From NCBI GenBank assembly GCA_937981985.1, contig CALJNB010000004.1, forward strand, positions 1 to 64,000: DNA of 64,000 nt. The letters run 5' to 3'. The notes under the pieces were generated by a model, which was not told the origin of the DNA, made no database searches, and saw nothing but the letters and a program-made list of their open reading frames with translations. Numbering within the stretch: the first letter of the stretch is position 1; each line of letters begins with the position of its first letter. The translations under genes and the position numbers were made by a program. The stretch is from an uncultured bacterium (GTDB lineage: Bacteria; Myxococcota_A; Bradymonadia; Bradymonadales; Bradymonadaceae). Shown here piece after piece: positions 18,556 to 35,228 of this stretch.

Positions 18556-20139
18556 ATGGCAAATATTAGAATCAATACAGGCGGAAAGATACTCGCCGCC
18601 GTCCTTGCGATAGCAGCACTTGGATTCGTTGGGTGGAAATTACTACCTAAAAAAGATGCTGTTAAAGACAGTAAAGTTATTCCGAAGATTGATGGCAAAG
18701 AGACCAAAACAGCGGCGTCGGCCGATGATGGAAAATCAACGCCAGGCATCGATCGTCCGATTAAAGTCGCAATTGTTACGTGGGGTGGATATGCCGGCGG
18801 CATTTTGGCCAACAACGGATTTGCAGCGAATAAAGAAAGTATCTTTTGGAAAGAGTACGGTATCGAAGTTGAGCTCAAGGTGATCGATGATTATGCAGCA
18901 AGTAGAGACGCCTTTAAAAAAGGCGGGGACAATGGTGGCGTCGATATTATGTGGGGAACCGTTGACTCCTATGCTCTTGAATATCCCGAAATTAAAGCTC
19001 TAAATCCTCAAGCTTTTATGCAATACGATTGGTCGCGTGGTGGGGATGCGATAGCGGTCACTAAAGAAATTAAGGAAGTTGCGGATCTCAAAGGCAAACG
19101 CGTAGCCGTTGCCGAGGCAACTCCATCGCACTATTTTGCCCTTTATCTTCTTTCTCAAGCGAATATGAAAACCGGTGACGTCAATTTTGTTTTCACAGCT
19201 TCGGCCATTGAGGCAGCGGCGCTCTTCCGAACGGGAAAGGTTGATGCGGCAGTAAGTTGGTCGCCAGATGTTTATCAAGCAGCTGAAGCCCGCGAAGGCG
19301 GACATATCCTAGCGTCAACCAAAGATGCAACAGCACTTATCGCCGACATCTTTATTTCTCGAGGTGATTTTGCGGATAAACATCCCGAACTTTTAGCCAA
19401 ATTTTTATTAGGTTGGTTTGATGGTGTTGAAAAAGTGAATGCCAAGCCAGCGTCTGTTTATGATCTCATGGTTGCTGGTTTTGAGGGAATTAAAAAAGAA
19501 GATGCGAAGGGAATGATAGAAGATGTTAAGCTTCCGAGCTATGCTGAAAATCTCGCATTCTTTGAGGTTACCGGTGATCAACTTCGTGGCTACGATGACA
19601 TATACAATGAAAGTGTAACAATCTGGAGAAGTCTTGGTAAAATTTCAGGAAAAACGGTTGCTGAAGCAACACGTACTCCAAAATATTTAAACGCGATTAG
19701 AGTCGAAGCCGAGAAGCGCTTTGGGAAAGTTGAAGCTAAAGAAGCCACAAAAGAATTTGCATTCGATTTTAACGAAAAGAAAAAGCCAAAGGAATCGATT
19801 CTCACCAAGCGCATTTCAATCTTTTTTCCATCAGGAAAATTTGAACTCGACGGAAATGCGAAGACGGTTCTCGATGATGCTGCGGCTCTTGCCCAAACAT
19901 TTGGTTCGGCGGGAATGCGTGTTACGGGTAATACGGATAGCAAAGGTAATGCAGCGAAGAATCAGACCTTATCACAAAAACGAGCACAGGCGGTCGTGGA
20001 TTATGTCATTCAAAAACATGGCTTTCCTAAAGATAAGTTTATTGTAGTCGGCGCTGGTTCTAAGAACCCGGTCGCTGACAATAATACTAAAGAAGGTCGT
20101 CAGCAAAATCGTCGTACCGATTTCGAAATTGTCCGTTAA
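18556..20139 (+). CDS. Membrane-anchored substrate-binding protein fused to OmpA-like domain
   Basis: A 527-residue protein. An uncleaved signal anchor (about residues 9-31) is followed by a Lys/Asp linker. A TauA/NMT1-type periplasmic binding domain spans about 70-390 (IKVAIVTWGGYAGG, VAVAEATPSHYFALYLL). An OmpA/MotB-type peptidoglycan-binding domain fills about 415-527 (FFPSGKFELDG, TGNTDSKGNAAKNQTLSQKRA, NRRTDFEI). Such fusions would hold the binding protein between the inner membrane and the cell wall. Downstream permease and ATPase genes show that it serves an ABC importer of the nitrate/taurine/aliphatic-sulfonate class; the substrate is unknown. Confidence 0.85.
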   Translation: MANIRINTGGKILAAVLAIAALGFVGWKLLPKKDAVKDSKVIPKIDGKETKTAASADDGKSTPGIDRPIKVAIVTWGGYAGGILANNGFAANKESIFWKEYGIEVELKVIDDYAASRDAFKKGGDNGGVDIMWGTVDSYALEYPEIKALNPQAFMQYDWSRGGDAIAVTKEIKEVADLKGKRVAVAEATPSHYFALYLLSQANMKTGDVNFVFTASAIEAAALFRTGKVDAAVSWSPDVYQAAEAREGGHILASTKDATALIADIFISRGDFADKHPELLAKFLLGWFDGVEKVNAKPASVYDLMVAGFEGIKKEDAKGMIEDVKLPSYAENLAFFEVTGDQLRGYDDIYNESVTIWRSLGKISGKTVAEATRTPKYLNAIRVEAEKRFGKVEAKEATKEFAFDFNEKKKPKESILTKRISIFFPSGKFELDGNAKTVLDDAAALAQTFGSAGMRVTGNTDSKGNAAKNQTLSQKRAQAVVDYVIQKHGFPKDKFIVVGAGSKNPVADNNTKEGRQQNRRTDFEIVR

Positions 20140-20145
20140 TTTTTC

Positions 20146-20165
20146 CCCGACCGAGAGTCGGGTTT
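20146..20165 (+). terminator. Intercistronic hairpin between SBP and permease
   Basis: CCCGAC (20146-20151) pairs with GTCGGG (20157-20162) around CGAGA, followed by only TTT. It could lower downstream expression so that binding protein exceeds permease, or stabilise the upstream message. Too weak a T-tract for a full terminator. Confidence 0.45.
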
Positions 20166-20183
20166 ACCCATTAAGGTTCCCCA

Positions 20184-20987
20184 TTGTTTGAACTCCGACA
20201 AGCTCTACCGAAATCTACGCGCTATGCGATCGGTGGAATTACGATTGCAATTCTCGTCATAATTTGGGTAGCAGTAACGGCAAGCGGTGCTTTTAGCGCT
20301 GCCGTTCTTCCAGGGCCAGGAGACCTCTTTCGGTCTATTCCGAAGATGTGGAACGCACCAAATTTCATGGCAATGAATGCGTTGACATCTTTAGGAAGGA
20401 TTACCGCCGGATTCATTTTGGCCGCGCTGGTCTCTATTCCCTTGGGGATTTTGATGGGATCTTTCACGCCTATTCGCGCTGCTGTTAATCCAATAATCAT
20501 CCCTATGCGGTTTTTACCGATCGCGGCTGCCGTGCCCATTTTCATTCTTTGGTTCGATTTCGGCGAGACAATGAAAATTACATTGCTCTTCGTGGGAACC
20601 TTTGTTTATTTATTACCTTTGGTTGTGGAAACCGTAGATCAAGTTGATGACGTTTACTTACGAACCGCTGCTACTTTAGGCGCCACAAAGAGTCAGATTA
20701 TTAAGACCATTTTGGTGCCGGCATCGCTCCCGGCTATCTTTGAGGCACTTCGTGTTATGTACGGTATCGGCTGGACCTACGTAATGCTCGCCGAATTCGT
20801 GACCGAGGAGGGGACAGGATACGCAGGTATAGGGTACCTCATTAATAAAATGCGTCGTTTCGGGTCGCTTAGCGATGTTTTGGTTTGTGTCATATTGATT
20901 TTGATTATCGGTGTAGCCGTTGACCGGCTTCTAGCATTTATCGGGCGATTACTATTCGCCTGGGCCCAACCCGCGGTGAAAGGATGA
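20184..20987 (+). CDS. ABC transporter permease (TauC/SsuC-like)
   Basis: A 267-residue inner-membrane protein with about six TM helices of the binding-protein-dependent permease type. The EAA-like loop that contacts the ATPase is seen at about residues 160-180 (RTAATLGATKSQIIKTILVPASLP). The start is TTG 20184 with AAGG seven bases upstream; no ATG fits. It overlaps the ATPase gene by four bases. Homology is to the nitrate/sulfonate/taurine permeases, agreeing with the binding protein. Confidence 0.9.
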   Translation: MFELRQALPKSTRYAIGGITIAILVIIWVAVTASGAFSAAVLPGPGDLFRSIPKMWNAPNFMAMNALTSLGRITAGFILAALVSIPLGILMGSFTPIRAAVNPIIIPMRFLPIAAAVPIFILWFDFGETMKITLLFVGTFVYLLPLVVETVDQVDDVYLRTAATLGATKSQIIKTILVPASLPAIFEALRVMYGIGWTYVMLAEFVTEEGTGYAGIGYLINKMRRFGSLSDVLVCVILILIIGVAVDRLLAFIGRLLFAWAQPAVKG

Positions 20988-21811
20988 GCGAAGAAATGGA
21001 AAATAAAAAAATACCGGTGGTTGAAGTTAAGGGACTTACAAGGACCTTTACGACCTCAGAGGGGGAATCTTTTACGGCGATAAAAGACGTAAATCTGGTG
21101 ATAGAAGACCGACCCGACCGCGGCGAAATGTGCGCAGTACTCGGCCCCTCGGGTTGCGGAAAATCGACCCTCTTGAATATGGTGGCCGGTTTGGATATGC
21201 CAACTTCGGGAACCGTTAAAGTAGATGGGAAGTCGATCGAAGGCCCGGGGCCCGACCGCGGTATGGTTTTTCAAAATTATTCAAGTATGCCTTGGATGAA
21301 TGTCCTTGAAAACGTTGCCTACGGTTTAAAGCTTCGGGGAATGAGCGTTAATGAGCGCCACGATCGAGCTAAGAAACTTATCGATCAAGTCGGTCTGAGT
21401 GGACACGAATTAAAATATCCAAAAGATCTCTCCGGCGGGATGCGTCAACGGGTAGCTATTGCGAGAACACTTGCAGTAGAACCCAACATTATCTTGATGG
21501 ATGAGCCTTTCGGGGCATTGGATGTGAGTACGCGCGTTGAGATGCAGGATATGCTTCTGCGTATCAATCTTGAGTTACAACCGACGATTCTTTTCATAAC
21601 TCATGATATTAGTGAGGCCGTTTACCTGGCCAATCGCATTTATATTTTCTCTGCGAGTCCGGGGACAATCGTCGACGTTATTGATGTTGACCTTCCGATC
21701 GAACGTGATCGAACCATTAAACATTCCCCACGATTCCGAAAATATGAATCAATGATTTTGGAACGTATTCATGAATTGGGTGAAGACTCTGAATACAAGA
21801 CTACGGTTTAG
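20984..21811 (+). CDS. ABC transporter ATP-binding protein (TauB/SsuB-like)
   Basis: A 275-residue cytoplasmic ATPase. Walker A is GPSGCGKST, Q-loop VFQNYSSMPWMNV, signature LSGGMRQR, Walker B IILMDEPFGALD, and the H-loop His is in FITHDISEA. This pattern is that of the nitrate/sulfonate/bicarbonate importer subfamily. It overlaps the permease by four bases and is followed after three bases by the membrane coiled-coil gene. Confidence 0.92.
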   Translation: MSEEMENKKIPVVEVKGLTRTFTTSEGESFTAIKDVNLVIEDRPDRGEMCAVLGPSGCGKSTLLNMVAGLDMPTSGTVKVDGKSIEGPGPDRGMVFQNYSSMPWMNVLENVAYGLKLRGMSVNERHDRAKKLIDQVGLSGHELKYPKDLSGGMRQRVAIARTLAVEPNIILMDEPFGALDVSTRVEMQDMLLRINLELQPTILFITHDISEAVYLANRIYIFSASPGTIVDVIDVDLPIERDRTIKHSPRFRKYESMILERIHELGEDSEYKTTV

Positions 21812-21814
21812 TAA

Positions 21815-22654
21815 ATGGCTGAAAAGAAAAAACAACGTAACTTACATAAAGAAGCTTTTTTTAGTCAGTATAATATCATCCTTCTCGCGTTTGCGGTTAT
21901 CGCCGCGGTTCTAACTGGAAGTTTTTTACCGATCGTCGCGGCTGTAGGTTTAGAGGTTTTGTACCTGGCTTTCGTTCCTGAGACCCAAATTTTTAAGCGT
22001 TTGGTCGACCAAAAATATTTGGAGATCGATAAAGAAGAAATCGATAATCAATACGAAAAGAGAATGTCATTACTTCAGTGGGGACAACGTGAGCGTTACG
22101 AATCTTTAGCGGGACTTATTCAAGACACGAAAGCAAACTTGAATAAGCACGGTGATGGGTTGGGGGATTCGATGGTTGGAAAACTTCGAACTCTCGAAGA
22201 ACGTTTCCTTTGGATGATGGAGACTGCTAATTCCTATGATCATTACCTAGGAAACGTGGACCACGATACGTTGCAACGGGATTTACATCACGTTCAATCG
22301 TCTATTTCTACCGCGTCGGGCGTCGTAAAAAAAACGCTTGAAGAACGTCATCATATTCTTAAAAAACGTCTGGAACGTCTGGAGAAGGTTTATGAAAATC
22401 GAACGGTCCTGACGACCCAGATTTCTACTGTTGAAGATATCATGCGGCTCATTTTTGAGTCATCGCTTTCAATGACAGATCCTCGCGGTGTTTCAAAACA
22501 GGTGGATGATTTACTTATCGATGTAGAATCGACCGAAGAGACGGTTAACGAACTCGACGGCGGTGAGTTTGAAGAAGAAATGGAATTGGAATTTGATGCC
22601 GAGCTTGAAAAAGCGTTGGCCGAAGCCGAAGAAGCCAGCGAGATCCATCTCTAG
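21815..22654 (+). CDS. Membrane-anchored coiled-coil protein
   Basis: A 279-residue protein with one hydrophobic hairpin or two TM helices near residues 18-55 (YNIILLAFAVIAAVLTG, then a second segment ending YLAFVP). The rest is a long helical, probably coiled-coil cytoplasmic region with a very acidic C-terminus. I do not recognise a named family. As last gene of the ABC operon, three bases after the ATPase, it is likely a scaffold or regulator of that transporter. No terminator was evident after it. Confidence 0.65.
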   Translation: MAEKKKQRNLHKEAFFSQYNIILLAFAVIAAVLTGSFLPIVAAVGLEVLYLAFVPETQIFKRLVDQKYLEIDKEEIDNQYEKRMSLLQWGQRERYESLAGLIQDTKANLNKHGDGLGDSMVGKLRTLEERFLWMMETANSYDHYLGNVDHDTLQRDLHHVQSSISTASGVVKKTLEERHHILKKRLERLEKVYENRTVLTTQISTVEDIMRLIFESSLSMTDPRGVSKQVDDLLIDVESTEETVNELDGGEFEEEMELEFDAELEKALAEAEEASEIHL

Positions 22655-23245: not shown

Positions 23246-25021
23246 ATGCTTTCTTTCGTTAGCTCTGCCACAGCCAGGCCAATCAAAGATCATTTGATTA
23301 TCGATCCTTGGGCACGAATCTGGCATATTGCGACTTCGACTTTAAGCCAGGCCACCACTTTGTTGAAATATCTTCAGATTTCGATTTTCGTACTTTTGAG
23401 CGCCTGCTCTTTTGTACGTTTCGAAGTGAGTCCGTACGTCGTACGAGATGTGGAGATTTATTATTCCGAGCAAGAAGACGTTACCTTTTTCTTTTGGAAG
23501 ATTAGACAGGAAGCCTTGCTTGATAAAGTCAGCTTTGAACAGTTTCAAAATTCTGATTATCGCGAAATAAGATTGGATGATGCGTTATTCCCCGCGGCGC
23601 CTTTTCAATGTGGTAACCATTGGTGTTTCCAATACCAGCAGACAGGGAAATACGAAAACGTATTAGAACCGATTCGTTCGGTTCATTCCAACCAAGGTGT
23701 TTTCGCAGGTACGAAGCCCCGACTGGAAACGGTAGGCACGACCTTTGGAAGTGAGCCCATCGGGATCGATAATAATAATCGTATCGATCCTCATCTTTAC
23801 GATTGGTTTGGCGAAAATAAGGTCGTTCTGAAGCGCGGATTCGAATGGCAATTTCGAGATCCTGGGGGGAACGATTGTGGGGCAGCAACTCAACCTTGGG
23901 CTTCGTTTTCAGGCGAAATCGATTCCAAACACGATTGGGTAGAATCGGCTAGTGCTGCGTGTTTCGCACTTCGTCCCAAACGAATTGATGGGCGAGGCGC
24001 GGAAGTTTTGATCCGATTACCCGCGTCAGCCGAAACCACCTTTGAGAAACAGCGCTACGATGCAGCTACAGAAATAGCTCATGCAGTTTATGGGGTTCTT
24101 GTTGATATGGAAATTCCCAACGATCAACGTTGTAATCAAATTAAGGATTGGCTGGCGTCCACGATTGAAGGGGCGATAGCTTCAAACTCTGAATCCCATA
24201 CGCTTCTTGGAATCTACACCCCGCTTTCAACTGTCGATGGCGAATCGCTATCGGGTTGCGAGCAACGCAATCAACAAGATTTTCCGCTAGCAAAAATGAT
24301 ACAAGATGCAAGGTCGGAACTGTCGCTCATCGAGAAACCGGTCCGAGTAATATGGATTTATGTAAATAATATTGATCAAGCACCGGCTGACCGGGTTTTA
24401 ACTCAGATTGTAGGGCTCCAAACGGCGCTTTCGAATAGTTTTTTGACTTATAACTTGGCGATTGGGTCCGATTTCATCATTCAATATTTTCAGCAAGACT
24501 CGCCTTTGGATGTGTTCGATGAAGATCCTGACGGAGAATTTGATCTTAATCCATTTAAACACGGGATTGGTTGGCGTCCGATCGAGGATGCTACCTTTGG
24601 TGCAGACATTCGTTCTTGGGCGAAGGCGAACCTTCCCTTTCACACCATGATTCACAACGACCGAACTGAGATTCCGATAAAAAAATGGACCGATGCAGCC
24701 GACGCAAAACGTTTTAAAATTTGCCAGGCAACGCCCTTTGAAGTCGACTTGATCGGTCTTAAAAGTCCCCTTTTTCAGTTCACGCGATTGGAGCCCAGTC
24801 TTGTCTGGCCCGATGATCAAGACCCATTTTTTTCTGTTCGAATTGATCCACAGATTCTTCTCCCAAAAAACGCTTATCGGCTTCAGCGCGTCGATACAGT
24901 CATCGAGGCTTGTCTACGTTTCTGCGACGCCCGTTTTCAGACTCAATCTAGAGAAGTATTTCAGAGTTGGTCGCAAACCCCCGGGGAAAGAGCCATGGAG
25001 ATTTGTCAATGGACCGAATAA
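23246..25021 (+). CDS. Large lipoprotein, first gene of the motor-like operon
   Basis: About 591 residues. A hydrophobic stretch ending in the lipobox FVLLSAC lies near residue 50 from ATG 23246. TTG 23360 or 23363 would give a conventional short signal peptide, so the start is uncertain. The mature part is mixed alpha/beta with several Cys residues and no family that I recognise. A stretch around residues 350-400 (EKPVRVIWIYVNNIDQAPAD) resembles the central strand and helix of a Rossmann- or vWA-like domain, a weak hint only. The gene overlaps the next by 13 bases and heads an eleven-gene operon of envelope proteins. Confidence 0.6.
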   Translation: MLSFVSSATARPIKDHLIIDPWARIWHIATSTLSQATTLLKYLQISIFVLLSACSFVRFEVSPYVVRDVEIYYSEQEDVTFFFWKIRQEALLDKVSFEQFQNSDYREIRLDDALFPAAPFQCGNHWCFQYQQTGKYENVLEPIRSVHSNQGVFAGTKPRLETVGTTFGSEPIGIDNNNRIDPHLYDWFGENKVVLKRGFEWQFRDPGGNDCGAATQPWASFSGEIDSKHDWVESASAACFALRPKRIDGRGAEVLIRLPASAETTFEKQRYDAATEIAHAVYGVLVDMEIPNDQRCNQIKDWLASTIEGAIASNSESHTLLGIYTPLSTVDGESLSGCEQRNQQDFPLAKMIQDARSELSLIEKPVRVIWIYVNNIDQAPADRVLTQIVGLQTALSNSFLTYNLAIGSDFIIQYFQQDSPLDVFDEDPDGEFDLNPFKHGIGWRPIEDATFGADIRSWAKANLPFHTMIHNDRTEIPIKKWTDAADAKRFKICQATPFEVDLIGLKSPLFQFTRLEPSLVWPDDQDPFFSVRIDPQILLPKNAYRLQRVDTVIEACLRFCDARFQTQSREVFQSWSQTPGERAMEICQWTE

Positions 25022-25641
25022 TCTCAATATTGTCTCTTTGTTTTTTTATGTTAATCGCGTCTGTATCGTTGGCTCAAGAACGGCCGACCGTTCAAAATCG
25101 ATTTGCGAAGAAGTCAGGCGCGGTTTCGGGGCACCTAACGGGTTCCACGCACGTGCGAAACGATTTTTACGATGCTTTCGGTTTTGGTCTGGACCTCAGC
25201 TATTACTTCGGCGAATCTTTCGGCGTTGAAATACGCGGGGTGTTGATTCAAAGTTCACTGTCGGCTCCAGCGCTTGACCTCAAAGAGCGGACGGGTCTAA
25301 CACCTGATACCTATCCACAATTCGGTATGATTCTTGGGGGAGCTCGTTATTCGATCGGCTACGGGAAGATACTGATATTCAAAAATCTTGTAGTTCATTT
25401 CGATCCTCAGCTTTTCCTCAATGGTGGCGTCACGTTCGCTGAACGTCGAATAATCCCGACCGGTCTTTTTGGAGTGTCTTTATTGAGCCATTTCCGTTGG
25501 GGTTTGCAGCTCAAAATTGATCTTGCAGGAAGCCTTCAGTTCGAAGACCGAACCGATCGGGGAACGGTAACGAGTTTTGGGTTTATGCCTTCCATCGGAA
25601 TAGGCTGGAATTCAGGAATACTTGGTGGGAGGAACCCATGA
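25009..25641 (+). CDS. Outer-membrane beta-barrel protein
   Basis: A 210-residue protein with a signal peptide (ending VSLAQ) and alternating hydrophobic strands typical of an eight-strand barrel (FGFGLDLSYYFGESFGVEIRG, ending GIGWNSG). It resembles the outer-membrane beta-barrel domain proteins common in myxobacteria-like genomes. ATG 25009 lies inside the end of the previous gene; longer starts would hide the signal peptide. It overlaps the following lipoprotein gene by four bases (ATGA). Likely part of an outer-membrane complex with the neighbouring barrels and lipoproteins. Confidence 0.75.
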   Translation: MDRIISILSLCFFMLIASVSLAQERPTVQNRFAKKSGAVSGHLTGSTHVRNDFYDAFGFGLDLSYYFGESFGVEIRGVLIQSSLSAPALDLKERTGLTPDTYPQFGMILGGARYSIGYGKILIFKNLVVHFDPQLFLNGGVTFAERRIIPTGLFGVSLLSHFRWGLQLKIDLAGSLQFEDRTDRGTVTSFGFMPSIGIGWNSGILGGRNP

Positions 25642-27644
25642 GAGTGTTCGCTATCTTACTTCTTTCTTGTTCTCTATCTTGCGCTAGCGTTGTGTCGAAC
25701 CCTGCGGCTCCCGATCGCTTTTCTTTTTTACAAAAAAGACAACTAAGCGATTTCGAACGTGCTTTAGCTTCTGATGCTCATAACGGAGAGGAGACGGATT
25801 GGACTAAGCTCGGGAATAGCTGGCTTGCGTTTGCCAATTGCGAACCTTTTCCCGACGTTAACTTTGAAGACAGATCAATATCCTTTTTGGAAGCAAGTTT
25901 ACGATCTGAATCGGCAAGACGTGATATGCGTTTAATCATCTTTGCTTCGGACGACGCTCCAGTAGAAACTCTAGCCGGAACGCTCATGTCGGAATCGTTC
26001 TTTAACCGAAAGGGTATAGATGAAGACGCTATAAAATGGCCTGGTGGGACTGAGCGTTGGGCGGACGAACACCCAGCATCTTTGGATATCCAAAGCCGAT
26101 GCTCAGAGTATATAACTGAGGTGGCCAACAAAGCACTCGATCTCGACAAAGACGGACTGCGTACGCCATTGGAGTATTGGGAAGCGCGTTATTACAACTC
26201 CATCATCGTCGCGAACAAGATGAGTAAGGATATTCCTTTCGAAAAAAGAAGGGGCGCGATTGGGGAGACACTTTTTAAGATAAACCTTGAAGGTATACGT
26301 TACTTCGCCGGCCGTCGTCGTATTTTCGAACAAGAAAGTCAAAGTCTAAAAAAGCAAAGAAACGAAAATTCGAAGTCTCCTGATGAGGATGCTGACCTTC
26401 TTCGATTACAAACCTTGGGTATGAACTACGTTTCAGCTTTTAGCAAAAAGATAAAGATCTTAGCCGACAATCTGCAAGAACTCGTACCGGTTGAAGGTCT
26501 TCGTTTCTCCGCGACCGAGTTGGCGATCGCGAAAAGTGTTTTGGCGATGTTGGCTTTAGAGGATGGTCGTTTCGAAGACGCGAGAAATTACCTCATTAGT
26601 AAACCGGGTTCGGTTCCCGATTTTGATGATACGCAGTCCGCGTGGTTGTCACGTTACCTCGATATTCGCGTCAACTCCGCCTTAGGTAATTTCAAATATA
26701 TCAGCGCTAAGTACGATAACGCATTACCCCCAAGACGGTCCAAATATTACGGCCCCTACGTCTATCGACTTGCAATAGCGCTAAAGGAGGGGGGCACAAA
26801 AGATCGCTTCTACGGGGTTGTGAAGTCCGCTTTCAGGGATCGTGTTTACAAGTCCGATCCCTTTTTACGTGCGCTATATTTCGAACTTTTAAAATCACTC
26901 GCCGCGGTGCCATTCGGGCCCGAAGTTAGCGAAATGCTGGAGGAACTAGGTTTGCGAGGAGAGACTTTTGAAAGGGTCGAGGAGTTAGCTCGCGTTGCTC
27001 TTGATGAAGGGCATCCGGACAATGCTTCAGCGGCAGCAAAATGGCTACTGAGCAACCATAATAACGCGAAGTTTCATCCTCGTTATAACGCTATTACCGC
27101 CCTCAGCGCTTTTCAGAGTGACGATGAGGCCTTATTTTTAGCCGCGTTGAAGGCTGTTATTTATCGGCAAAAAGAAGTAGTCGAGGCTCTTGCTCCTTCT
27201 CGTCGTGCGAAGTTTTTTCAGCACGCCGATATCGAACTCACACGCGTGCTGCAAAGGATCATTCCCGAAATGGCGGAGTGGGGTGATTCAGCTATGATTC
27301 GTAAACGCCGGCAAAAATGGCTGAAGGTTCTTGTCGGTGTGACGCAAGAATTTCTGCATAACGACAAGAACTCTATGGCGCGTCGCGCCCTGGTCGAACT
27401 TTATCGTTTAGCAAGTGGTTTACTCGAAGACGACCCGAGGGGATACGCAGAACGTGTGGGTGAATCGAGATTGAGGCCGTTGGTTCTTGGGCAGGTTACA
27501 TTGGAGTCAACAGAATTAGACGCGTTCGAACCAGGAATCGATCTCGGGATCTCAACGGTATTTAGTACAACCTTAGTTCCTAACAATACACCTATCGCTG
27601 AGTGGATGGACCGGTTCCCCGAAGGAGAGGTCTACGATGATTAG
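25638..27644 (+). CDS. Large helical-repeat lipoprotein
   Basis: A 668-residue lipoprotein (lipobox SLSCA) that is almost entirely helical. Paired amphipathic helices from about residue 250 on suggest TPR- or HEAT-like repeats, although no perfect TPR consensus was seen. Such proteins act as periplasmic scaffolds in multi-protein machines. It overlaps genes on both sides (four and eight bases), so its translation is coupled to the two beta-barrel proteins. No family name is assigned. Confidence 0.6.
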   Translation: MRVFAILLLSCSLSCASVVSNPAAPDRFSFLQKRQLSDFERALASDAHNGEETDWTKLGNSWLAFANCEPFPDVNFEDRSISFLEASLRSESARRDMRLIIFASDDAPVETLAGTLMSESFFNRKGIDEDAIKWPGGTERWADEHPASLDIQSRCSEYITEVANKALDLDKDGLRTPLEYWEARYYNSIIVANKMSKDIPFEKRRGAIGETLFKINLEGIRYFAGRRRIFEQESQSLKKQRNENSKSPDEDADLLRLQTLGMNYVSAFSKKIKILADNLQELVPVEGLRFSATELAIAKSVLAMLALEDGRFEDARNYLISKPGSVPDFDDTQSAWLSRYLDIRVNSALGNFKYISAKYDNALPPRRSKYYGPYVYRLAIALKEGGTKDRFYGVVKSAFRDRVYKSDPFLRALYFELLKSLAAVPFGPEVSEMLEELGLRGETFERVEELARVALDEGHPDNASAAAKWLLSNHNNAKFHPRYNAITALSAFQSDDEALFLAALKAVIYRQKEVVEALAPSRRAKFFQHADIELTRVLQRIIPEMAEWGDSAMIRKRRQKWLKVLVGVTQEFLHNDKNSMARRALVELYRLASGLLEDDPRGYAERVGESRLRPLVLGQVTLESTELDAFEPGIDLGISTVFSTTLVPNNTPIAEWMDRFPEGEVYDD

Positions 27645-28386
27645 TGGTTTATTTTACCGTATTGGCATCTCTTTTATCGTCCTCGTTTGCTCTACTTCTG
27701 TGGCCTCGGCTCAGGAACGAAAGGGAGCCAGCGAAGAGTGTGGCGCGGATCGCCGATGTCGCATTCAACGGATTAAAGACATCAACCAAACACGACGTCG
27801 AAATGCGTTCTTTAACGATCGCAATGCAAGACGAAGTGGAAGAGCGCAAGCCGAAAAAGAACGATTGAAAAAAACGCCTCGTACCAACCGGCCCTTCACT
27901 GCAGAAATGAGATCATCGCGCGTAGGGTTCTTCGGACTAGCAATGGGATATCAATTCGCAGATAATTTTAGGGGTCAATTATCGTGGCACCTCGTTGATA
28001 TTGTAAACTATAGTTCTGCGACCATCGCGCTATACGGCAGCCAGTTTGGTTTGAGTTTAGAGTATTTCTTAACAACCGGCGCGTTTGCTCCTTTTCTTTC
28101 TAGCGGTTTCTACATTTACGATGGACCTGCAGGCACTAATTATTCTTCGTCTAGCGGCTCAACTGGACAGCAGGGCTCGTTACATTTTGCCGAACTTGGT
28201 GCCGGGTTTGATGTTCAATTGGACGGCGGATATAGATTTCGATTAATGGGCGCCTATAAGCCGCTATTATACCATCAAGGAATCGTAGGGGATACCCATG
28301 ATGAGTCGGTCAAGAACGCCCTAAAAGAGACCTTTGACGTGGATATGCAAATCGATGTCGTTGTTCAACTGGGGTATGCATTTTGA
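27637..28386 (+). CDS. Outer-membrane beta-barrel protein
   Basis: A 249-residue protein with a signal peptide (cleavage after ASAQ). A basic, Arg-rich segment of about 60 residues follows (FNDRNARRSGRAQAEKERLKK is the densest part), then a barrel domain with strands such as GFFGLAMGYQFADNF and a terminal aromatic strand VVVQLGYAF, the usual C-terminal signature for outer-membrane insertion. The basic segment before the barrel could contact peptidoglycan, LPS or a partner protein. Part of the eleven-gene operon. Confidence 0.7.
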   Translation: MISGLFYRIGISFIVLVCSTSVASAQERKGASEECGADRRCRIQRIKDINQTRRRNAFFNDRNARRSGRAQAEKERLKKTPRTNRPFTAEMRSSRVGFFGLAMGYQFADNFRGQLSWHLVDIVNYSSATIALYGSQFGLSLEYFLTTGAFAPFLSSGFYIYDGPAGTNYSSSSGSTGQQGSLHFAELGAGFDVQLDGGYRFRLMGAYKPLLYHQGIVGDTHDESVKNALKETFDVDMQIDVVVQLGYAF

Positions 28387-28388
28387 AA

Positions 28389-29603
28389 ATGGATAAAATA
28401 ATGTTCAAAAAAACAATCATTTCGTTTTTGTTCTTATCTTGTTTTTTGTGGTCTAACGCACTTTTTGCTCAAGGCAACAAAGAATTAGAGCCGCAGATTA
28501 CGAAACTCAATAAGAACGAGTTGTCGAAAGATAGGGAGAATAAACCCGCTGTTAAACAACAGACTGCTGAGGATGCCAGAAGGCGTTATCTTGAAATTCG
28601 AGAAAGTGCACGACGAGAAATTCGAAGCGGAGATGGCGTCGTGCATATTTATATACTCGCCGAGGAGATGATCGATGAGGTGGTCTCCGAGATCGTCAAA
28701 CTCAACGTCAGTGCAGTGTCTCCTATTGCGGTTCGGCCCATATCGTTGACTTCGAATCTCAATAAAGAGTTCGGCGATTTCGTAGAAGCTACGCTCGTTA
28801 CAAATATCGCCAACAATACCGATATGATTGTCAAACGATGCGCGGCTTGCGGAGCGATGCGTTCGAGAATCGAAAACGGGCAATGGGCGATTACTTTGGG
28901 GATTACCTCACAAGAAGATCTCCGACGTGAGGCGAAGCGTTTAGGGGTGAAGGCGTTCTTAGACATTAAGTTCTCTCATTTCCCCGGGGCGAACGTTGTC
29001 GCAATGAACGTTGAAATTACGAGAGCGGATGACGGCGCTATTTTGTGGACAGATACTTATCGAAGTGATGCGACGACAGCGTCTATTCTTAGAAGTGGAG
29101 ATCGCGTCATTAGTCGCGCGGAGAGAATGAAAGAGCTTGAAAGAAAAATCGATGCGCGACCTTATTATGGACACATGCTTTACGGAGGAGCTGCGTTCAT
29201 TCCATTTGACGGGCCAACCGGCGGTATTGGTGGGGCGTCGTTAGGTTACCGTCTCTACGAGCGTTTCGGCGAGGACCGACGGTGGACTTTTGGAATAGGT
29301 GCGGAAGGTTTTGCCAATTTTAGCGATGCTAACCCTTTGTTGGGCTCTTTCGTAGGCGGAACACTTCAGTGGGAAATCTTCGAACCGGATCTCAATAGTC
29401 CTACATATAGAACCGGACCGACAATCTCGGGTTTTTTCGCTGGCACGGAGGGTAATTCTGTTGCTGCCGAGTGGGGGTTCGACGTCACTCTGCAATTTCG
29501 TTTGGGGCTGGGTGCCAGCATCATGTATTTTAATCCGGTAGAATTTGCCGGTGGAGATTTAGGTGGGCTTGGCTACAAGTTTCGCGTTTCGTTTAATTGG
29601 TAA
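28389..29603 (+). CDS. FlgO/CsgG-like domain fused to an outer-membrane barrel
   Basis: About 404 residues with a signal peptide (ending NALFAQ). Residues from about 75 to 230 have the CsgG/FlgO/TolB-N fold pattern: VAVRPISL-type first strand, DFVEATLVTNIANNTDMIVK, a small-letter 'LGVKAFLDIKF' strand, and ITRADDGAILWTDTYRSD, typical of FlgO-type proteins. The C-terminal 170 residues form a beta barrel ending KFRVSFNW. FlgO proteins are associated with the outer-membrane part of some flagella. Start is ATG 28389 or 28401. The combination in one protein is unusual. Confidence 0.65.
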   Translation: MDKIMFKKTIISFLFLSCFLWSNALFAQGNKELEPQITKLNKNELSKDRENKPAVKQQTAEDARRRYLEIRESARREIRSGDGVVHIYILAEEMIDEVVSEIVKLNVSAVSPIAVRPISLTSNLNKEFGDFVEATLVTNIANNTDMIVKRCAACGAMRSRIENGQWAITLGITSQEDLRREAKRLGVKAFLDIKFSHFPGANVVAMNVEITRADDGAILWTDTYRSDATTASILRSGDRVISRAERMKELERKIDARPYYGHMLYGGAAFIPFDGPTGGIGGASLGYRLYERFGEDRRWTFGIGAEGFANFSDANPLLGSFVGGTLQWEIFEPDLNSPTYRTGPTISGFFAGTEGNSVAAEWGFDVTLQFRLGLGASIMYFNPVEFAGGDLGGLGYKFRVSFNW

Positions 29604-29608
29604 ACTTT

Positions 29609-30361
29609 ATGACTAATTTATATAAATACTTTTTTCTTAGTGCTGGACTTATTCTTTTTAATGCTTGTTCAAAGAATAATGTCCCCGAGACGATAGTTGT
29701 CGGTTCGGACAGATCCGCAGAGGCGCAAGTTTCGTACGCCGATGGTTCTTCTCAACGTTATGTCATTCGGATGAGTGACGGAAAACGTGATTGGGAAATC
29801 GAATTCCCTAACGTCGCGTCGGGGTATATGGTTAAAATTCCGCTAAAGAATGAGCCCGGGGATAATGGAATCGTTTGGGAGTCTGAAAATCTGACGGCGG
29901 CGGATAAGGAATTGCTAAAAGATCTCCGTCGGGAAAATCCTGAAATGGAACGAGAAGGCGTTTTCAGAAACGGACGAAACTTAAACGATCCAGAAGGTAA
30001 AAACGAATTAGGAGGATTAGAACCCGGCGCCGAACTCGACAAAGATGGTAACCCGATATCCGACCCTGGAAAAGTGGCGTTACAGCAAAACGAAGACGCG
30101 GCCTCTCAAACTCGTCCAAGTTATTTGCTTGGGATCCAAGAGGTGGGAAAGCTCTTTCAATCCAATAATTACGAACTCGCGATGGTACGGATTGTTCAGT
30201 TGGAGAAGGCGTACCCCAACGATGTGAAAATATTGTCAATGAAAGGTACGTTATGGATGAAGCTGGGTAAGAAAAACTTGGCGAGGGAAGCTTGGGAACA
30301 AGTTTTGCAAATTGAACCCGACAATCGCGCTGTTATTCAAGCGCTTAAACAAACGAATTAG
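29609..30361 (+). CDS. TPR lipoprotein
   Basis: About 250 residues. Lipoprotein signal peptide (lipobox LFNACS), a beta-rich domain to about residue 85 (YADGSSQRYVIRMSDGKRDW), an acidic linker, then two or three tetratricopeptide repeats at the C-terminus (MKLGKKNLAREAWEQVLQIE is a good TPR). TPR proteins of this type are periplasmic adaptors. ATG 29609 is chosen over an in-frame TTG 12 bases upstream. It is immediately followed, seven bases on, by the MotA-like gene. Confidence 0.75.
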   Translation: MTNLYKYFFLSAGLILFNACSKNNVPETIVVGSDRSAEAQVSYADGSSQRYVIRMSDGKRDWEIEFPNVASGYMVKIPLKNEPGDNGIVWESENLTAADKELLKDLRRENPEMEREGVFRNGRNLNDPEGKNELGGLEPGAELDKDGNPISDPGKVALQQNEDAASQTRPSYLLGIQEVGKLFQSNNYELAMVRIVQLEKAYPNDVKILSMKGTLWMKLGKKNLAREAWEQVLQIEPDNRAVIQALKQTN

Positions 30362-30368
30362 GATTAGT

Positions 30369-31118
30369 ATGCATCTCATTATTGGAATACTCATTGTTGT
30401 CGGTTCGTTTCTTCTATCGATCGAATATATGTCCGATGAATTTAGCGGATTTCTAAATGCTTACTCGGGCATTCTTTTGGTCGGCGTGCCCATCGGTCTG
30501 GTTTTGATGTCCTACAAATTTTCGACTATCGGACAGGCCTTCTCTGGATTTTTTGGGGCACTATTTGCCAACGCCGAGAATGAGCGCCAAGCAGTCGCCA
30601 ACGACCTCGTCGCGTTTGGTCGCGAAGTGCGTCGTGATAAAGGTCTGGCTGCTTCTACCATTTTGGAGAAGAGTTCGGACCCTTTATTTCGCCATCTAGG
30701 GAGACATGTTCTGCAAAGCACCGATCCCGGAGAAATTGAAGCTGATGCCATGATTATCGGCGACAGAAACCTTGAACCTTTTCGCGCGGCCGAACGTGTT
30801 CTAAGCAGTCTTGGTGATTACGCGCCTGCGATGGGAATGATTGGCACCGTTATCGGTTTAATTCAGCTTCTTGCAAATATGCGCGATTTCGAAAAACTTG
30901 GTCCTGGAATGGCGATCGCACTCTTAACAACTTTCTACGGACTTGTTCTAGCTAACTTGCTGTACCTGCCGTTGAGTAGGCTGGTCGCAAACTATATTAG
31001 TAAACGCACAACTCATATGAACTTGATCGTTGAGGGAATGCTAAAGCTCTCTCGACGGCGTCCCATACACGAAGTTCAAGAGGTCATGGGTACTCATTCT
31101 GAGAAGGTAAGGCCGTGA
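30369..31118 (+). CDS. MotA-like stator protein
   Basis: A 249-residue inner-membrane protein of the MotA/TolQ/ExbB superfamily with four TM helices and the large cytoplasmic loop of MotA. The motif DYAPAMGMIGTVIGLI carries the conserved Pro-Ala-Met-Gly at the start of TM3, and GPGMAIALLTTFYGLVLANL is the TM4 motif characteristic of MotA. ATG 30369 has AGGATT upstream. It overlaps the MotB-like gene by four bases (GTGA). With that partner it should form a proton-conducting stator that drives movement of the neighbouring FliG-like protein. Confidence 0.9.
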   Translation: MHLIIGILIVVGSFLLSIEYMSDEFSGFLNAYSGILLVGVPIGLVLMSYKFSTIGQAFSGFFGALFANAENERQAVANDLVAFGREVRRDKGLAASTILEKSSDPLFRHLGRHVLQSTDPGEIEADAMIIGDRNLEPFRAAERVLSSLGDYAPAMGMIGTVIGLIQLLANMRDFEKLGPGMAIALLTTFYGLVLANLLYLPLSRLVANYISKRTTHMNLIVEGMLKLSRRRPIHEVQEVMGTHSEKVRP

Positions 31119-31933
31119 GTAAGCTACAGCATATCGGGGCGTCCTATTTTGAGGCTGCACCGCTTAAAAAAAGGGCAGGTTGGATTATTAGCTACGCTGA
31201 TTTGATGACGATAATCTTAACATTCATGATTCTTCTTTTATCGATTTCTACCATTGCGCAAACCAAGTTCGACCTGATGGTGGAATCTCTGACAGGTAAG
31301 AAAGTGGGTAATCTTCAGGAAGTTAAGACGAAGATCGATGAGGTAGTCAAAATTGAGGCTATCGGTGGAGAAGTCACGACTAACATTGATGAAAGAGGTT
31401 TAACTATTTCGTTTTCAAACGCGCTTCTCTTTGAGTCTGGTGAGGCGAAGTTGACCGAGCGTGGGTCTAAAATATTTGCGCCTATTGGAAAGCATCTCGT
31501 CGAGGATTTAGAGCTCGCATACGGGCTGGTCGTCGAGGGATACACCGACGATGTGCCTATTTCCAACAGCAAGTTTAATTCGAATTGGGAACTTTCTACC
31601 AGTCGCGCGATTGATGTTATGGAGCGCTTACATGAAGAAGGGCTACAAAGAAATCGTATGAGTGTTCAAGGTTTCGCGGATACTCGTCCAGAGGGAGACA
31701 TCGATCTTCATGACGAAGCGAAGATCTCTAAATTGGATACGACCCAGCTTGGCGAACTTCGCGCTACGAATCGTCGCGTTGTGATTCGAATTGATAAATT
31801 ACACGAAGACGTTTTTAAGAAAGTCTTGGGGAGTCAAGAAAAGGTACCTGTGGGAAAAGATGAAGGTATTTCGCCTCGAGATATTCCTGGATTTGGAACT
31901 GAATTGAAAATGAACATGGGAAGTGCGAAATGA
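31115..31933 (+). CDS. MotB-like stator protein with peptidoglycan-binding domain
   Basis: A 272-residue protein with a short cytoplasmic N-terminus, one TM helix and a C-terminal OmpA-like domain. The plug/proton-binding Asp is Asp29 in SYADLMTIILTFMILL, equivalent to Asp32 of E. coli MotB. The wall-binding motifs are VEGYTDDVPI, ELSTSRA and RATNRRVVIRI. The OmpA domain means that the stator is fixed to peptidoglycan, as in flagella and unlike the AglQS proteins of Myxococcus gliding. Start is GTG 31115, coupled to motA. Confidence 0.92.
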   Translation: MSKLQHIGASYFEAAPLKKRAGWIISYADLMTIILTFMILLLSISTIAQTKFDLMVESLTGKKVGNLQEVKTKIDEVVKIEAIGGEVTTNIDERGLTISFSNALLFESGEAKLTERGSKIFAPIGKHLVEDLELAYGLVVEGYTDDVPISNSKFNSNWELSTSRAIDVMERLHEEGLQRNRMSVQGFADTRPEGDIDLHDEAKISKLDTTQLGELRATNRRVVIRIDKLHEDVFKKVLGSQEKVPVGKDEGISPRDIPGFGTELKMNMGSAK

Positions 31934-33720
31934 AGAACTGTAAAATTTTAATATTATTCATATTCTTGTTGTTTTTTCCGTCGCAAGTTTTCGCACAAGA
32001 TGATGGTGTGATTCGACTCAATCTTGAACCCACAGAAAAAACTCGAATGTCTCAACGTGAGAGGCAGGTCTCACAGGCGGAGAAGGCTCGGGTATCGACT
32101 CAAGCAAGAAATATAGTCGAGTCGCTTTTCGAAAGATTGTGTCCTGGCCGATGTCAGCTTGTGAGCCTGGATGTGAAAATGGAACGACCCAAACCGGTTG
32201 GACAAGCAACGCCCGGTTTCGAATCGGTGTCCGGTTCTTCCTATGATGCCACGCCAAGAGGAATCAACGTCAACGTACTTTTGGACAGTAAGTTACCCAG
32301 GAATTTTCAAGCCAACATACCACGTATGATTCAGTATCAACTTCATACATTAGCGCCCAAAATAAATGTGAAGCCTGAATTACTGAATTTTCCCGAACCT
32401 CAATTAGCGCCTATGGCGCCTTACCTTCCTGAGCCTCCACAAAGAACTTTTCAACCGCCGCCACTACCAGAGATTCCAGCGCCGCTACCTCCAGTTGAGG
32501 CCGAGAAAAAAGAGGCCGTCGTCGATGAAGTCGTTCCGGTGGAAGAAGAGTCAGTTCTCAAAAATTTCCTAAAAGAATTGGCTCCTTGGTTGGGGCCGAT
32601 CTTGATGGCCTTGGTCTTATTTGGCTTCGCGCTCGTTCTGCTTCGTCGAATTTCGGAACTGGGTAAGTCCGGTGCTATGTTGAGTGAAGATTCTAAAAAG
32701 AAAGTACGAAATGTCGATTTGGATCTGGTGAAGCAAGATTTTGAAAATAATCGTTCACTTAGAAATCGTATACTTAGAAAATGGATCGGTGAAGACCCTG
32801 AAGGGGTCGCAGATCTTGTTCGCTGGATTGGTCCACATATTTTGGTTGATTTAAAAAAGGATAGTGCGTTGAAGCCGCAATTAACGATTATAGCTGGTAT
32901 CCTTTCCGACCAAAACGATACATTGAGTTTCGAAGAAATAGAAAAGCTCGGTGGCGTCGCTCAAAAGCGTCTTGTTTCTGAGAAAGTTATCTTCGATGGG
33001 AGTGGAAAAAGCGATTGGGAATTTCTTGAAGGTCTGGGTGTGAATAGTCTCCATCGTATCGTTAAAGGCTGTACGACTGACGAACATGTGTACGTTCTTG
33101 GTCAGCTCCCGAGAAGTTTACGCGGCTCGTATTTAGAAACACTCAGTAACGCAGCACGAAAGGAATTGGTATTAGGAACCTCTTCCACGATGATGTCAAA
33201 AACAGATGCTTCATCGCTTGCCGCAAGGCTTCGTAGAAACGCCGACGAGTTTTCGCATATCAGTACCGAAGCTAACGGTCAGACGATGTTGGTCCTCGAG
33301 ATGGTTGAAGCCTTGGCGTTAGACGAACAAATCTCGATGCTCCGAGATTTGAGCGCAAATCGTCCCGAGGTTTCTCAACGCGTTCTAAATCGCCTTGTTC
33401 TCGAAACCACAACATTGTTAATCCCCGGTGATATTCTTGCGGACGCGATTCATCGTACGCCTATTGAAACCCTTACTGGGTTTCTTCGTGGTACGCTTCC
33501 AGAAGTTAGAGATCATTTTCTTACGATAGCGCCGGGTTCAAAACGGCAGGCTCTAGGAACAGAACTTTCACTGAATTTGCCGGTCGGAAGAGGAGAGTAT
33601 TTGTCAGCGCGGGATACCTTAATGAAGACACTTCATGGTTTGGCGCTCAGAGATGGATTTGATTTGTCGAAAGCAAATTTAAAAATGTTAGATCACCGTA
33701 GAAATAATCAGGAGATATGA
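31930..33720 (+). CDS. FliF-like membrane protein with FliG-like cytoplasmic domains
   Basis: A 596-residue protein. It has a cleavable signal peptide (ends VFAQ), then a periplasmic part of about 190 residues with FliF/SctJ ring-building-like segments (VNVLLDSKLP; TQARNIVESLFERL), a Pro-rich linker, one TM helix (about 222-242), and a cytoplasmic part. The first cytoplasmic segment contains WIGEDPEGVADLVRWIG, the FliG-binding tail pattern of FliF. Next is a FliG-M-like helical region (about 365-425) and a FliG-C-like torque domain (about 440-585) with LTGFLRGTLPEVRDHFL. In the torque helix an Arg replaces E. coli Lys264 and one acidic residue survives. Natural FliF-FliG fusion is my inference. 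Confidence 0.7.
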   Translation: MKNCKILILFIFLLFFPSQVFAQDDGVIRLNLEPTEKTRMSQRERQVSQAEKARVSTQARNIVESLFERLCPGRCQLVSLDVKMERPKPVGQATPGFESVSGSSYDATPRGINVNVLLDSKLPRNFQANIPRMIQYQLHTLAPKINVKPELLNFPEPQLAPMAPYLPEPPQRTFQPPPLPEIPAPLPPVEAEKKEAVVDEVVPVEEESVLKNFLKELAPWLGPILMALVLFGFALVLLRRISELGKSGAMLSEDSKKKVRNVDLDLVKQDFENNRSLRNRILRKWIGEDPEGVADLVRWIGPHILVDLKKDSALKPQLTIIAGILSDQNDTLSFEEIEKLGGVAQKRLVSEKVIFDGSGKSDWEFLEGLGVNSLHRIVKGCTTDEHVYVLGQLPRSLRGSYLETLSNAARKELVLGTSSTMMSKTDASSLAARLRRNADEFSHISTEANGQTMLVLEMVEALALDEQISMLRDLSANRPEVSQRVLNRLVLETTTLLIPGDILADAIHRTPIETLTGFLRGTLPEVRDHFLTIAPGSKRQALGTELSLNLPVGRGEYLSARDTLMKTLHGLALRDGFDLSKANLKMLDHRRNNQEI

Positions 33721-34667
33721 TGAAAAATATAATACGTAAATTTACGATTCCCGTTTTTGGAATGCTATTCTCATACCTTTTGTTTAGTGCGTGTACCGTA
33801 ATTCGTGAAGTAGGACCGGAGGAGGAAAAGGAGAAGGACGCACTTCCACCTAAAGTTATTGATATGCTTGTTCTCGTAGAATTAGGACGCGGAACGACCA
33901 ATCTAACGGAAGACTTTGGAAAGATTATCGGTACATTGCGAGCCGGTTTAGAGGCGCAAAACATCAGTGTGCGAAAGGCCGCTATGGCACCCATGTACCG
34001 GCAGTCCGACGGCGTTGTTCCTATCGTGTTTGGTGAAAACGATCCGGATTCGGACTTTTCATCATATGCCGATGCCCTACTGTTCTATACTCGAGACGCG
34101 GGTACTGAGTTCATTCCCGATAAGGCTTCGTCAGATATTGAAAACCTGGCGATTCTGGGCGCTAATCTAGACCAAAGGGCCGTTTATCACCCAGAGAGCG
34201 CAGACCCCGACGCCATCGCGTATTTCGAGTCGGCAAAGGATGGGTTTCTCGTGGTTCATCTAGCCGCCTCGCCGAGAAGGTGCGCAGCATCGGATAGCGA
34301 TTGTACGAATATCGAGGGTACAAGTTATAGCGCATATTTTACACAGGAAATAGACGATAAAGCCACGTGGTTAACGCTTCCAGGTAAAACGGGTTTGCCA
34401 GCTGATAAGATCGTTCACGCTGTTATCGCTACCGCTGAGGGCATCGATTATGATGAGTTTCGAGAAATATGTTCTAACTACCCAAATTTTCCGGCGACGA
34501 AACTAGATGTTATGGAACCTTCTGAAAAAGTATTTTTTAATAAATTTGTGGACGAAATTGAAGACAACGGGGGAACCGCTGAATATATGGATCTCTGCGA
34601 AGCGATGTCTAAAGCCGGAGAGGTGAGTTTACTTCAGATGAGTGCAAAGATTAGGACGGCGTTTTAA
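33717..34667 (+). CDS. Lipoprotein with vWA-like fold, motor operon
   Basis: A 316-residue lipoprotein (lipobox LLFSAC). The early strand KVIDMLVLVELGRGT and the following helix KIIGTLRAGLEAQNISVRKA follow the first strand, loop and helix of von Willebrand A domains. The metal-binding DxSxS is absent, so any domain is degenerate. Two Cys-rich loops follow (RRCAASDSDC; REICSNYPN). Start has GGAG and overlaps the FliF/FliG-like gene by four bases. Gliding bacteria use a vWA lipoprotein (CglB) as an outer-membrane adhesin, which makes a similar role here conceivable but unproven. Confidence 0.5.
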   Translation: MMKNIIRKFTIPVFGMLFSYLLFSACTVIREVGPEEEKEKDALPPKVIDMLVLVELGRGTTNLTEDFGKIIGTLRAGLEAQNISVRKAAMAPMYRQSDGVVPIVFGENDPDSDFSSYADALLFYTRDAGTEFIPDKASSDIENLAILGANLDQRAVYHPESADPDAIAYFESAKDGFLVVHLAASPRRCAASDSDCTNIEGTSYSAYFTQEIDDKATWLTLPGKTGLPADKIVHAVIATAEGIDYDEFREICSNYPNFPATKLDVMEPSEKVFFNKFVDEIEDNGGTAEYMDLCEAMSKAGEVSLLQMSAKIRTAF

Positions 34668-35228
34668 ATGCAACCTAAGAAACGAGTAATCGCAGCACAG
34701 AGTATCGGTATGTTATTGGCTCTGGGAGTTGGGGTTCTCATCGGTGCAAGAAGTTGTGGCAAAACGGAGACACATCGAGAATATATGATGCCTACGAAGC
34801 AGCAGCCAGAGGTTGTCGAAAAAATTGTTTACGAATGCCCGCCCGAGGTCCCCGAGATACAACTTGAAAAAGGCGATCAGAAACGGGGCAAGACTGTGAA
34901 CAGACGCATCAAAGCGAAGGTTAAATCTGAACTTCCAGCGGATAACGTGCAATCACAAAATAAGAGAAAACGTTTGCTTGCTGTTGTTCGCGCGAAATCA
35001 AAAGCGACACTTACGAGTTGTCGTGGATCCGATAAGCAAGTTTACCGTCTAAGCGTTAGTCTTGTGGCTAAAAAAAACGGTAGTGTCTCGACGGTCAAAA
35101 TTAATGCTCCGCCGGGGGAGGTTCCAGCGGGAATTTTAAATTGTTTACGCGGTCGGATGAAAAAATGGACCTTGCCTGAATCTGATGTCGTGGCTCAACA
35201 GCCTATTATTTGGGGGCTTACGCTTTAG
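34668..35228 (+). CDS. AgmX/PglI-type (TonB-like) C-terminal domain protein
   Basis: A 186-residue protein anchored by one N-terminal TM helix (about 10-28). A basic, Pro/Glu-rich spacer follows, then a 90-residue domain with a conserved Cys pair (LTSCRGSD and LNCLRGRM) and YRLSVSLVAKKNGSVSTVKI. This pattern matches the AgmX/PglI C-terminal domain of myxobacterial gliding proteins GltG and GltJ, which resembles the TonB C-terminus and contacts outer-membrane partners. It is the last gene of the operon, immediately after the vWA-like lipoprotein. Confidence 0.7.
   Translation: MQPKKRVIAAQSIGMLLALGVGVLIGARSCGKTETHREYMMPTKQQPEVVEKIVYECPPEVPEIQLEKGDQKRGKTVNRRIKAKVKSELPADNVQSQNKRKRLLAVVRAKSKATLTSCRGSDKQVYRLSVSLVAKKNGSVSTVKINAPPGEVPAGILNCLRGRMKKWTLPESDVVAQQPIIWGLTL

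Follow-up and report, generated by a model that had tools for sequence, protein, structure and literature searches.

What does a flagellar-type motor do in a bacterium that appears to lack a flagellum? This question is raised by an eleven-gene operon (genes A to K) at positions 23246-35228 of the forward strand of contig CALJNB010000004.1, the first 64,000 nucleotides of which form the window analyzed here. The source is an uncultured bradymonad (Myxococcota; class and phylum naming as in PMC11509652), and its home family takes in Lujinxingia vulgaris and a Lujinxingiaceae metagenome-assembled genome. The operon combines a MotA/MotB stator pair, a protein related to the flagellar rotor protein FliG, and a set of predicted lipoproteins and outer-membrane barrels, and it probably encodes an undescribed cell-surface motor. 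Our reading, to which we assign a probability of about 0.6, is that the operon specifies a non-flagellar rotary machine, driven by ions and spanning the envelope, whose output would most likely be gliding, or movement on surfaces and prey by means of adhesins.

A sequence-only reading of the window had described a tight run of eleven genes encoding a trans-envelope motor without a filament. The run is borne out, consisting of eleven co-directional open reading frames separated by 4-13 base overlaps or tiny gaps, and given the FliG similarity and the flagellum-free genomes described below, a non-filament motor is the best reading of it, with gliding as an inferred output. One gene call was corrected: the MotA start is placed at 30369 rather than 30312 (nearly all relatives begin at MH[VI]), so that gene F and MotA do not overlap. 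A scan for promoters and terminators returned sites in numbers not above those in shuffled sequences. The genes are as follows.

Gene A, 23246..25021, + strand: large cysteine-rich predicted lipoprotein with lipobox LLSAC and no family match; start provisional; aligned in 9 genomes and syntenic
Gene B, 25009..25641, + strand: predicted outer-membrane beta-barrel, OMP_myx_plus-like (TIGR04565)
Gene C, 25638..27644, + strand: predicted lipoprotein of 668 aa, TPR-like (weak TPR match)
Gene D, 27637..28386, + strand: predicted outer-membrane barrel with no family match
Gene E, 28383..29603, + strand: periplasmic alpha/beta part followed by a predicted C-terminal barrel
Gene F, 29597..30361, + strand: predicted lipoprotein with TPR at the C-terminus (PF07719, 7.7e-5)
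Gene G, 30369..31118, + strand: MotA, flagellar-class stator subunit (PF01618, 1.5e-21)
Gene H, 31115..31933, + strand: MotB with plug (PF13677, 8.2e-12), OmpA-like peptidoglycan-binding domain (PF00691, 1.5e-12) and Asp29
Gene I, 31930..33720, + strand: putative rotor with FliF RBM3-like and FliG-like parts
Gene J, 33717..34667, + strand: predicted lipoprotein, vWA/integrin-I-domain-like; candidate surface adhesin
Gene K, 34668..35228, + strand: N-terminal membrane helix, proline-rich stretch and C-terminal domain weakly AgmX/PglI-tail-like

Stator and rotor-like protein

Protein I begins with a signal peptide, followed by a periplasmic alpha-beta-beta-alpha-beta domain resembling FliF RBM3 (aa 42-152), a proline-rich linker, a membrane helix (~209-247) and a helical, FliG-like cytoplasmic part (aa 264-594). 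Sequence profiles and the predicted fold both show a relationship to FliG. The protein I profile matches FliG structures in the PDB (3ajc, 1.1e-6; 1lkv, 8.5e-6), and hhalign pairs it with an alignment of true FliG proteins at an E-value of 5.9e-6 over 240 columns; family alignments are required here, as individual E. coli sequences of FliG or FliF were uninformative in hhalign. The likeness covers the FliG M and C domains, which here belong to a membrane protein instead of a separate one. The Pfam FliG_C model matches 10 of the 12 family members (best 3.7e-9), the PF01706 gathering cut-off is passed in nine relatives, and the window protein itself reaches 14.8 bits on the FliG_C model, under the cut-off. 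In line with the profiles, Foldseek searches with the predicted model return FliG at ranks 1-13 (best E-value 9.7e-7), followed by the FliF S-ring/RBM3 at ranks 14-27 (0.01-0.03). The FliG similarity, whose failure in profile searches would have told against the sequence-only reading, therefore held. Protein I leaves no room for FliF RBM1 and RBM2, and it lacks the FliM-binding EHPQ motif. The position of FliG D289 is glutamate in all 12 family sequences covering it, a basic residue lies one to two positions off R281 and one off R297, and K264 is replaced by arginine or glutamine. In the home family, charges that pair with MotA in E. coli thus occur at the corresponding positions or beside them.

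MgtE identity was considered for protein I, since MgtE_N, which resembles the FliG middle domain, also matches; the C-terminal FliG_C match and the PDB and Foldseek rankings favor FliG. A FliG_C match at G006:C52 was likewise set aside as a rotor, since it resembles, by eye, an MgtE-type transporter. Other bradymonads carry short stand-alone FliG_C proteins of 135-211 aa (L078:2711-3304, L079:8899-9507, G210:C87, G071:C84 and G266:C537) with no link to motor genes or to the operon; in L078 and L079 the gene adjoins, by eye, a DNA polymerase I-like gene. In a second bradymonad family, f7, true flagellar FliF and FliG occupy one open frame of 865-872 aa within a real flagellar gene cluster (L073, G169:C12 ~110219; L074, G129:C60 ~224073), an apparent natural fusion. 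FliF-FliG fusions work in Salmonella and form rings in Vibrio studies (PMC11481574), which makes a natural one-piece rotor plausible.

The stator claim of the sequence-only reading is upheld, and the sequences place MotA and MotB in the flagellar stator class rather than with AglQ/S- or TolR-like proteins. The MotA profile matches PomA/MotA structures at 3e-28, compared with ~1e-4 for TolQ/ExbB, and the ExbD E-value for MotB is 0.17. A 2025 survey lists the plug and an expanded peptidoglycan domain as flagellar-stator traits and places AglRS in a non-flagellar group (PMC12505986); the class assignment follows from the agreement of the plug, the OmpA domain and the PomA-like MotA with these traits. 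The channel aspartate of MotB (Asp29) is invariant, P173 and P222 of MotA are invariant in aligned relatives, and the position of MotA E98 is acidic in 12/12 of them.

Distribution of the operon and its relation to the flagellum

The full A-K set occurs in identical order in 10 other genomes, and shorter contigs carry uninterrupted stretches of that order, which is kept in every relative whose sequence reaches the genes, in two families (home and f7). Gene I is present in 14 of 21 home-family genomes and in 3/3 sampled genomes of f7, and among the genomes searched the system was met only in class Bradymonadia. The genes flanking A-K mostly differ between genera; the shared gene order exceeds chance, and the operon is inherited in an all-or-none fashion. 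Gene D, the least conserved of the set (1e-12 to 1e-28 between genera), is syntenic in all complete loci. Full-strength matches to the gene C and gene E profiles are limited to operon carriers, with no clear relative of C elsewhere among 284 Myxococcota genomes; the one exception is f7, where the E profile also finds a weaker, additional E-like gene. This gene lies outside the operon (L097:9312-10496, L098:9195-10418, L099:307-1515) and in L097 and L098 adjoins, by eye, mreB-, penicillin-binding- and rodA-like genes. An exception among the flanking genes, found directly downstream of K in several genera (L019, L023, L024, L026 and L018), encodes a lineage-specific protein of ~290-300 aa, sometimes duplicated and absent from the window, and is possibly a twelfth gene. 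Directly upstream of the operon, window positions 18556-22654 hold an NMT1-like substrate-binding protein fused to an OmpA domain, with an ABC permease, an ATPase and a membrane protein.

A divergent core, E-F-MotA-MotB-I, is found in family f4 (G071, G089 and G210; partial at contig ends in G242 and G261), where it has different neighbors (L156, L157, L158, L159 and L160). The f4 gene I product aligns end to end with the window protein I (hhalign probability 99.1, E-value 1e-17).

Is the cluster simply part of a flagellum? In its own genome no FliG_C match and no match to Flg_bbr_C (PF06429; rod, hook and hook-associated proteins) was found, and PF06429 is absent from 17 of 21 family genomes. 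A complete flagellar gene set, which would have undone the sequence-only reading, was thus not found, and since flagellar FliG and rod/hook genes are both missing, the cluster does not belong to a flagellum. At 85% completeness the genome is a draft in which absence is weak evidence on its own, but three Lujinxingia-genus genomes at 96-99% completeness show the same absence. Rod and hook genes are absent from 11 of the 14 home-family operon carriers, while the other three (G001, G007 and G015) also have a flagellar gene set. In f7, the operon stands alongside a flagellar FliG, and G013, taken as Persicimonas, has a flagellum and no operon. Collectively, carriers without flagella, carriers with both and a genome with a flagellum alone show that the operon is inherited independently of the flagellum.

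The FHIPEP gene of the same genome passes the NCBIfam cut-off for SctV and fails that for FlhA. This export-gate gene stands alone at G000:C29:8604-10703 (L071), its contig also carrying BamB- and OmpA-like genes, and a single SctJ-sized gene and a single SctQ-like gene lie on other contigs; each flagellum-free genome has one SpoA gene, read as SctQ. The claim that no rod, hook, FliM/FliN or export gene accompanies the cluster stood. A needle-less type III secretion system has been described in bradymonads (PMC11509652). It shares ancestry with the flagellar export core; however, membership of the operon in such a system was rejected, as the type III secretion genes lie on other contigs and are present in operon-less relatives too.

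Envelope partners and proposed mechanism

Lipobox-like signals in A, C, F and J agree with the four lipoproteins first proposed, and the cysteine is invariant in C, F and J. Other envelope assignments fared less evenly. The outer-membrane barrel claim stood for B, which matches TIGR04565 at 5.1e-14 (52.6 bits, just below the 60-bit cut-off) and PF13505 at 0.005, whereas D and the C-terminal half of E are barrel-like in appearance and match no family. A FlgO/CsgG-like label for E was dropped, as Pfam and PDB profile searches returned no match and no such domain. The AgmX/PglI tail of K kept a weak likeness below the domain cut-off: on NF033768 the window protein scores 14.2 bits (E-value 0.034) against a cut-off of 40, and 3 of 12 family members reach 0.01 or better (best 0.004). 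The confident AlphaFold2 (AF2) model of J (predicted local distance difference test score, pLDDT, 85.8) shows a vWA-like fold, its best Foldseek matches including vWF A1, integrin beta and TRAP (3e-4 to 1e-2), and J is on this model a vWA/integrin-like lipoprotein and a candidate surface adhesin. The fold recalls the Myxococcus gliding adhesin CglB, which carries a von Willebrand A domain (PMC13104615), and a lipoprotein of this kind points to adhesion.

From these parts we infer a machine in which ring formation, rotation, the order of parts, surface exposure and gliding would fit together as follows. MotA5B2 units, tethered to peptidoglycan by the OmpA domain of MotB and gated by its plug, would press against the cytoplasmic, FliG-like part of protein I. 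Many copies of this protein, each a single chain linking the FliF RBM3-like domain through a membrane helix to the FliG-like torque domain, would form a ring. Torque would rise via the proline-rich linker and the periplasmic ring to the TPR lipoproteins C and F, the transmembrane protein K and the barrels B, D and E. At the cell surface this force would set the vWA lipoprotein J in motion, and probably A as well. Whether this amounts to a distinct motor class, with a flagellar stator acting on a ring built from a natural FliF-FliG-like fusion and surface adhesins moved in place of a filament, with no export gate, rod or hook, we consider evenly balanced.

Three grounds make gliding or the transport of adhesins the likeliest output, namely the adhesin-like fold of J, a parts list resembling the Glt gliding complex of Myxococcus, and a contrast between genera. 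Lujinxingia is described as gliding and Bradymonas as weakly gliding (PMC7188933); Lujinxingia has the operon and no flagellar genes, and the genome taken as Bradymonas (G002) lacks the operon.

Several results weigh against this reading. OsmC- and MamM-like folds follow closely behind the FliF matches of protein I in Foldseek (FliF E-value ~0.01), and hhalign pairs protein I with FliF weakly and over a short stretch of the FliF C-terminus, albeit at the expected place between the membrane helix and the FliG part; for these reasons the FliF-like part of the model is likely but not proven, and of the FliF/FliG claim the FliG half stands firmly and the FliF half moderately. The AF2 model of protein I has a predicted template-modelling score (pTM) of 0.33, so that the domain arrangement is not fixed by the model. 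Family f7 retains the MotA-pairing charges in part, and f4 lacks the acidic one; these charges therefore support, and do not prove, a torque interface. The f4 rotor proteins, searched on their own, do not reach FliG. Some gliding must proceed without the operon, since operon-less Persicimonas also glides (PMC7188933) and Bradymonas does so weakly, and surface motility of bradymonads has been attributed to type IV pili (PMC11509652).

Known systems, alternative readings and significance

The operon fails the defining tests of the flagellum (rod, hook, export gate, FliM docking), of the Myxococcus Agl/Glt machine (ExbD-type stator) and of Zorya. With the flagellar motor it shares flagellar-class MotA/MotB, a FliG-like torque domain and, probably, a FliF RBM3-like domain. 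It differs in that one short chain, with a signal peptide followed by a single membrane helix, holds both the FliF-like and the FliG-like part, in lacking EHPQ, linked FliM/FliN, export gate, rod, hook and filament, and in having partners of outer-membrane, TPR and adhesin-like type. Stators related to MotAB but working outside the flagellum are well known. Zorya also has a MotA/MotB-like pair in a non-flagellar operon, and our MotB scores on ZorB models; a Zorya defense system was nonetheless rejected, since ZorB-type matches concern MotB alone, no ZorA match was found, and the partners are envelope proteins, none recognized as ZorC, ZorD or ZorE. In Bacteroidota gliding and type IX secretion, a rotary ion motor (GldLM) likewise drives surface movement via outer-membrane adhesins. 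GldM is not known to have an OmpA domain of the MotB type, nor the GldLM system a FliG, and no gene like those of the type IX secretion system (T9SS) was recognized among the eleven.

A serious rival, though we rate it unlikely, is that the same motor serves secretion, polysaccharide or lipid movement, or a killing or predation device across the envelope, as the TolQR, ExbBD and T9SS motors serve envelope tasks. Bradymonads are indeed contact-dependent predators (PMC7460792, PMC11509652), but operon-less genera are predatory as well; E, B and D could form pores, yet no secretion ATPase, secretin or polysaccharide enzyme is found among the 11 genes; and while a gliding regulator is absent from the operon and operon-less relatives glide too, the vWA/integrin-like J points to adhesion.

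That the operon is a variant Agl/Glt machine with a swapped motor seems to us improbable, and clearly less credible than such an envelope task. The inventories are similar, with a proton-channel motor, TPR proteins, outer-membrane barrels, an AgmX-type protein and a vWA lipoprotein adhesin, for which the operon offers the OMP_myx_plus barrel B, the weak AgmX tail of K and, as a candidate, the vWA-like J, and the 668-aa TPR protein C between two barrels recalls GltC (673 aa, TPR) beside the GltB/GltA barrels (PMC3169522, Table 1). This likeness is one of size and type, with no sequence match to Glt proteins established, and the gene C profile finds its clear relatives among carriers alone. The motors differ as well: AglQ/S are of ExbD/TolR type (PMC3169522) and AglRS fall in the non-flagellar stator clade (PMC12505986), whereas here a plug- and OmpA-bearing MotB, a PomA-like MotA and a FliG-like rotor are present, and the published Glt descriptions searched yielded no mention of FliG. 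Finally, the idea that the operon is left over from a lost flagellum, as a remnant or in a regulatory capacity, and does no mechanical work is rejected as exceedingly improbable, even if flagellar likeness is confined to the stator and rotor-like parts and the majority of carriers have no flagellum. The frames are open, the order is kept and the motor residues are conserved in three families; the operon coexists with complete flagella in three home-family genomes and with flagellar FliG in f7; and the other eight genes match no flagellar family, in a genome without FliG, rod or hook genes.

The claim of an undescribed system fits the literature, as open-access papers (subscription papers and preprints lay outside the search) yielded no account of a FliG rotor in a machine other than the flagellum, and we rate the operon a new kind of system assembled from known parts, with a proposed function. 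If the proposed rotary motor is real, it would show what half a flagellar motor can do and offer structural biologists a minimal stator-rotor pair of natural origin, and it could supply a rotor-based mechanism of surface movement in predatory bradymonads. The operon is a concrete candidate, open to experimental test, for a FliG-type rotor outside the flagellum.

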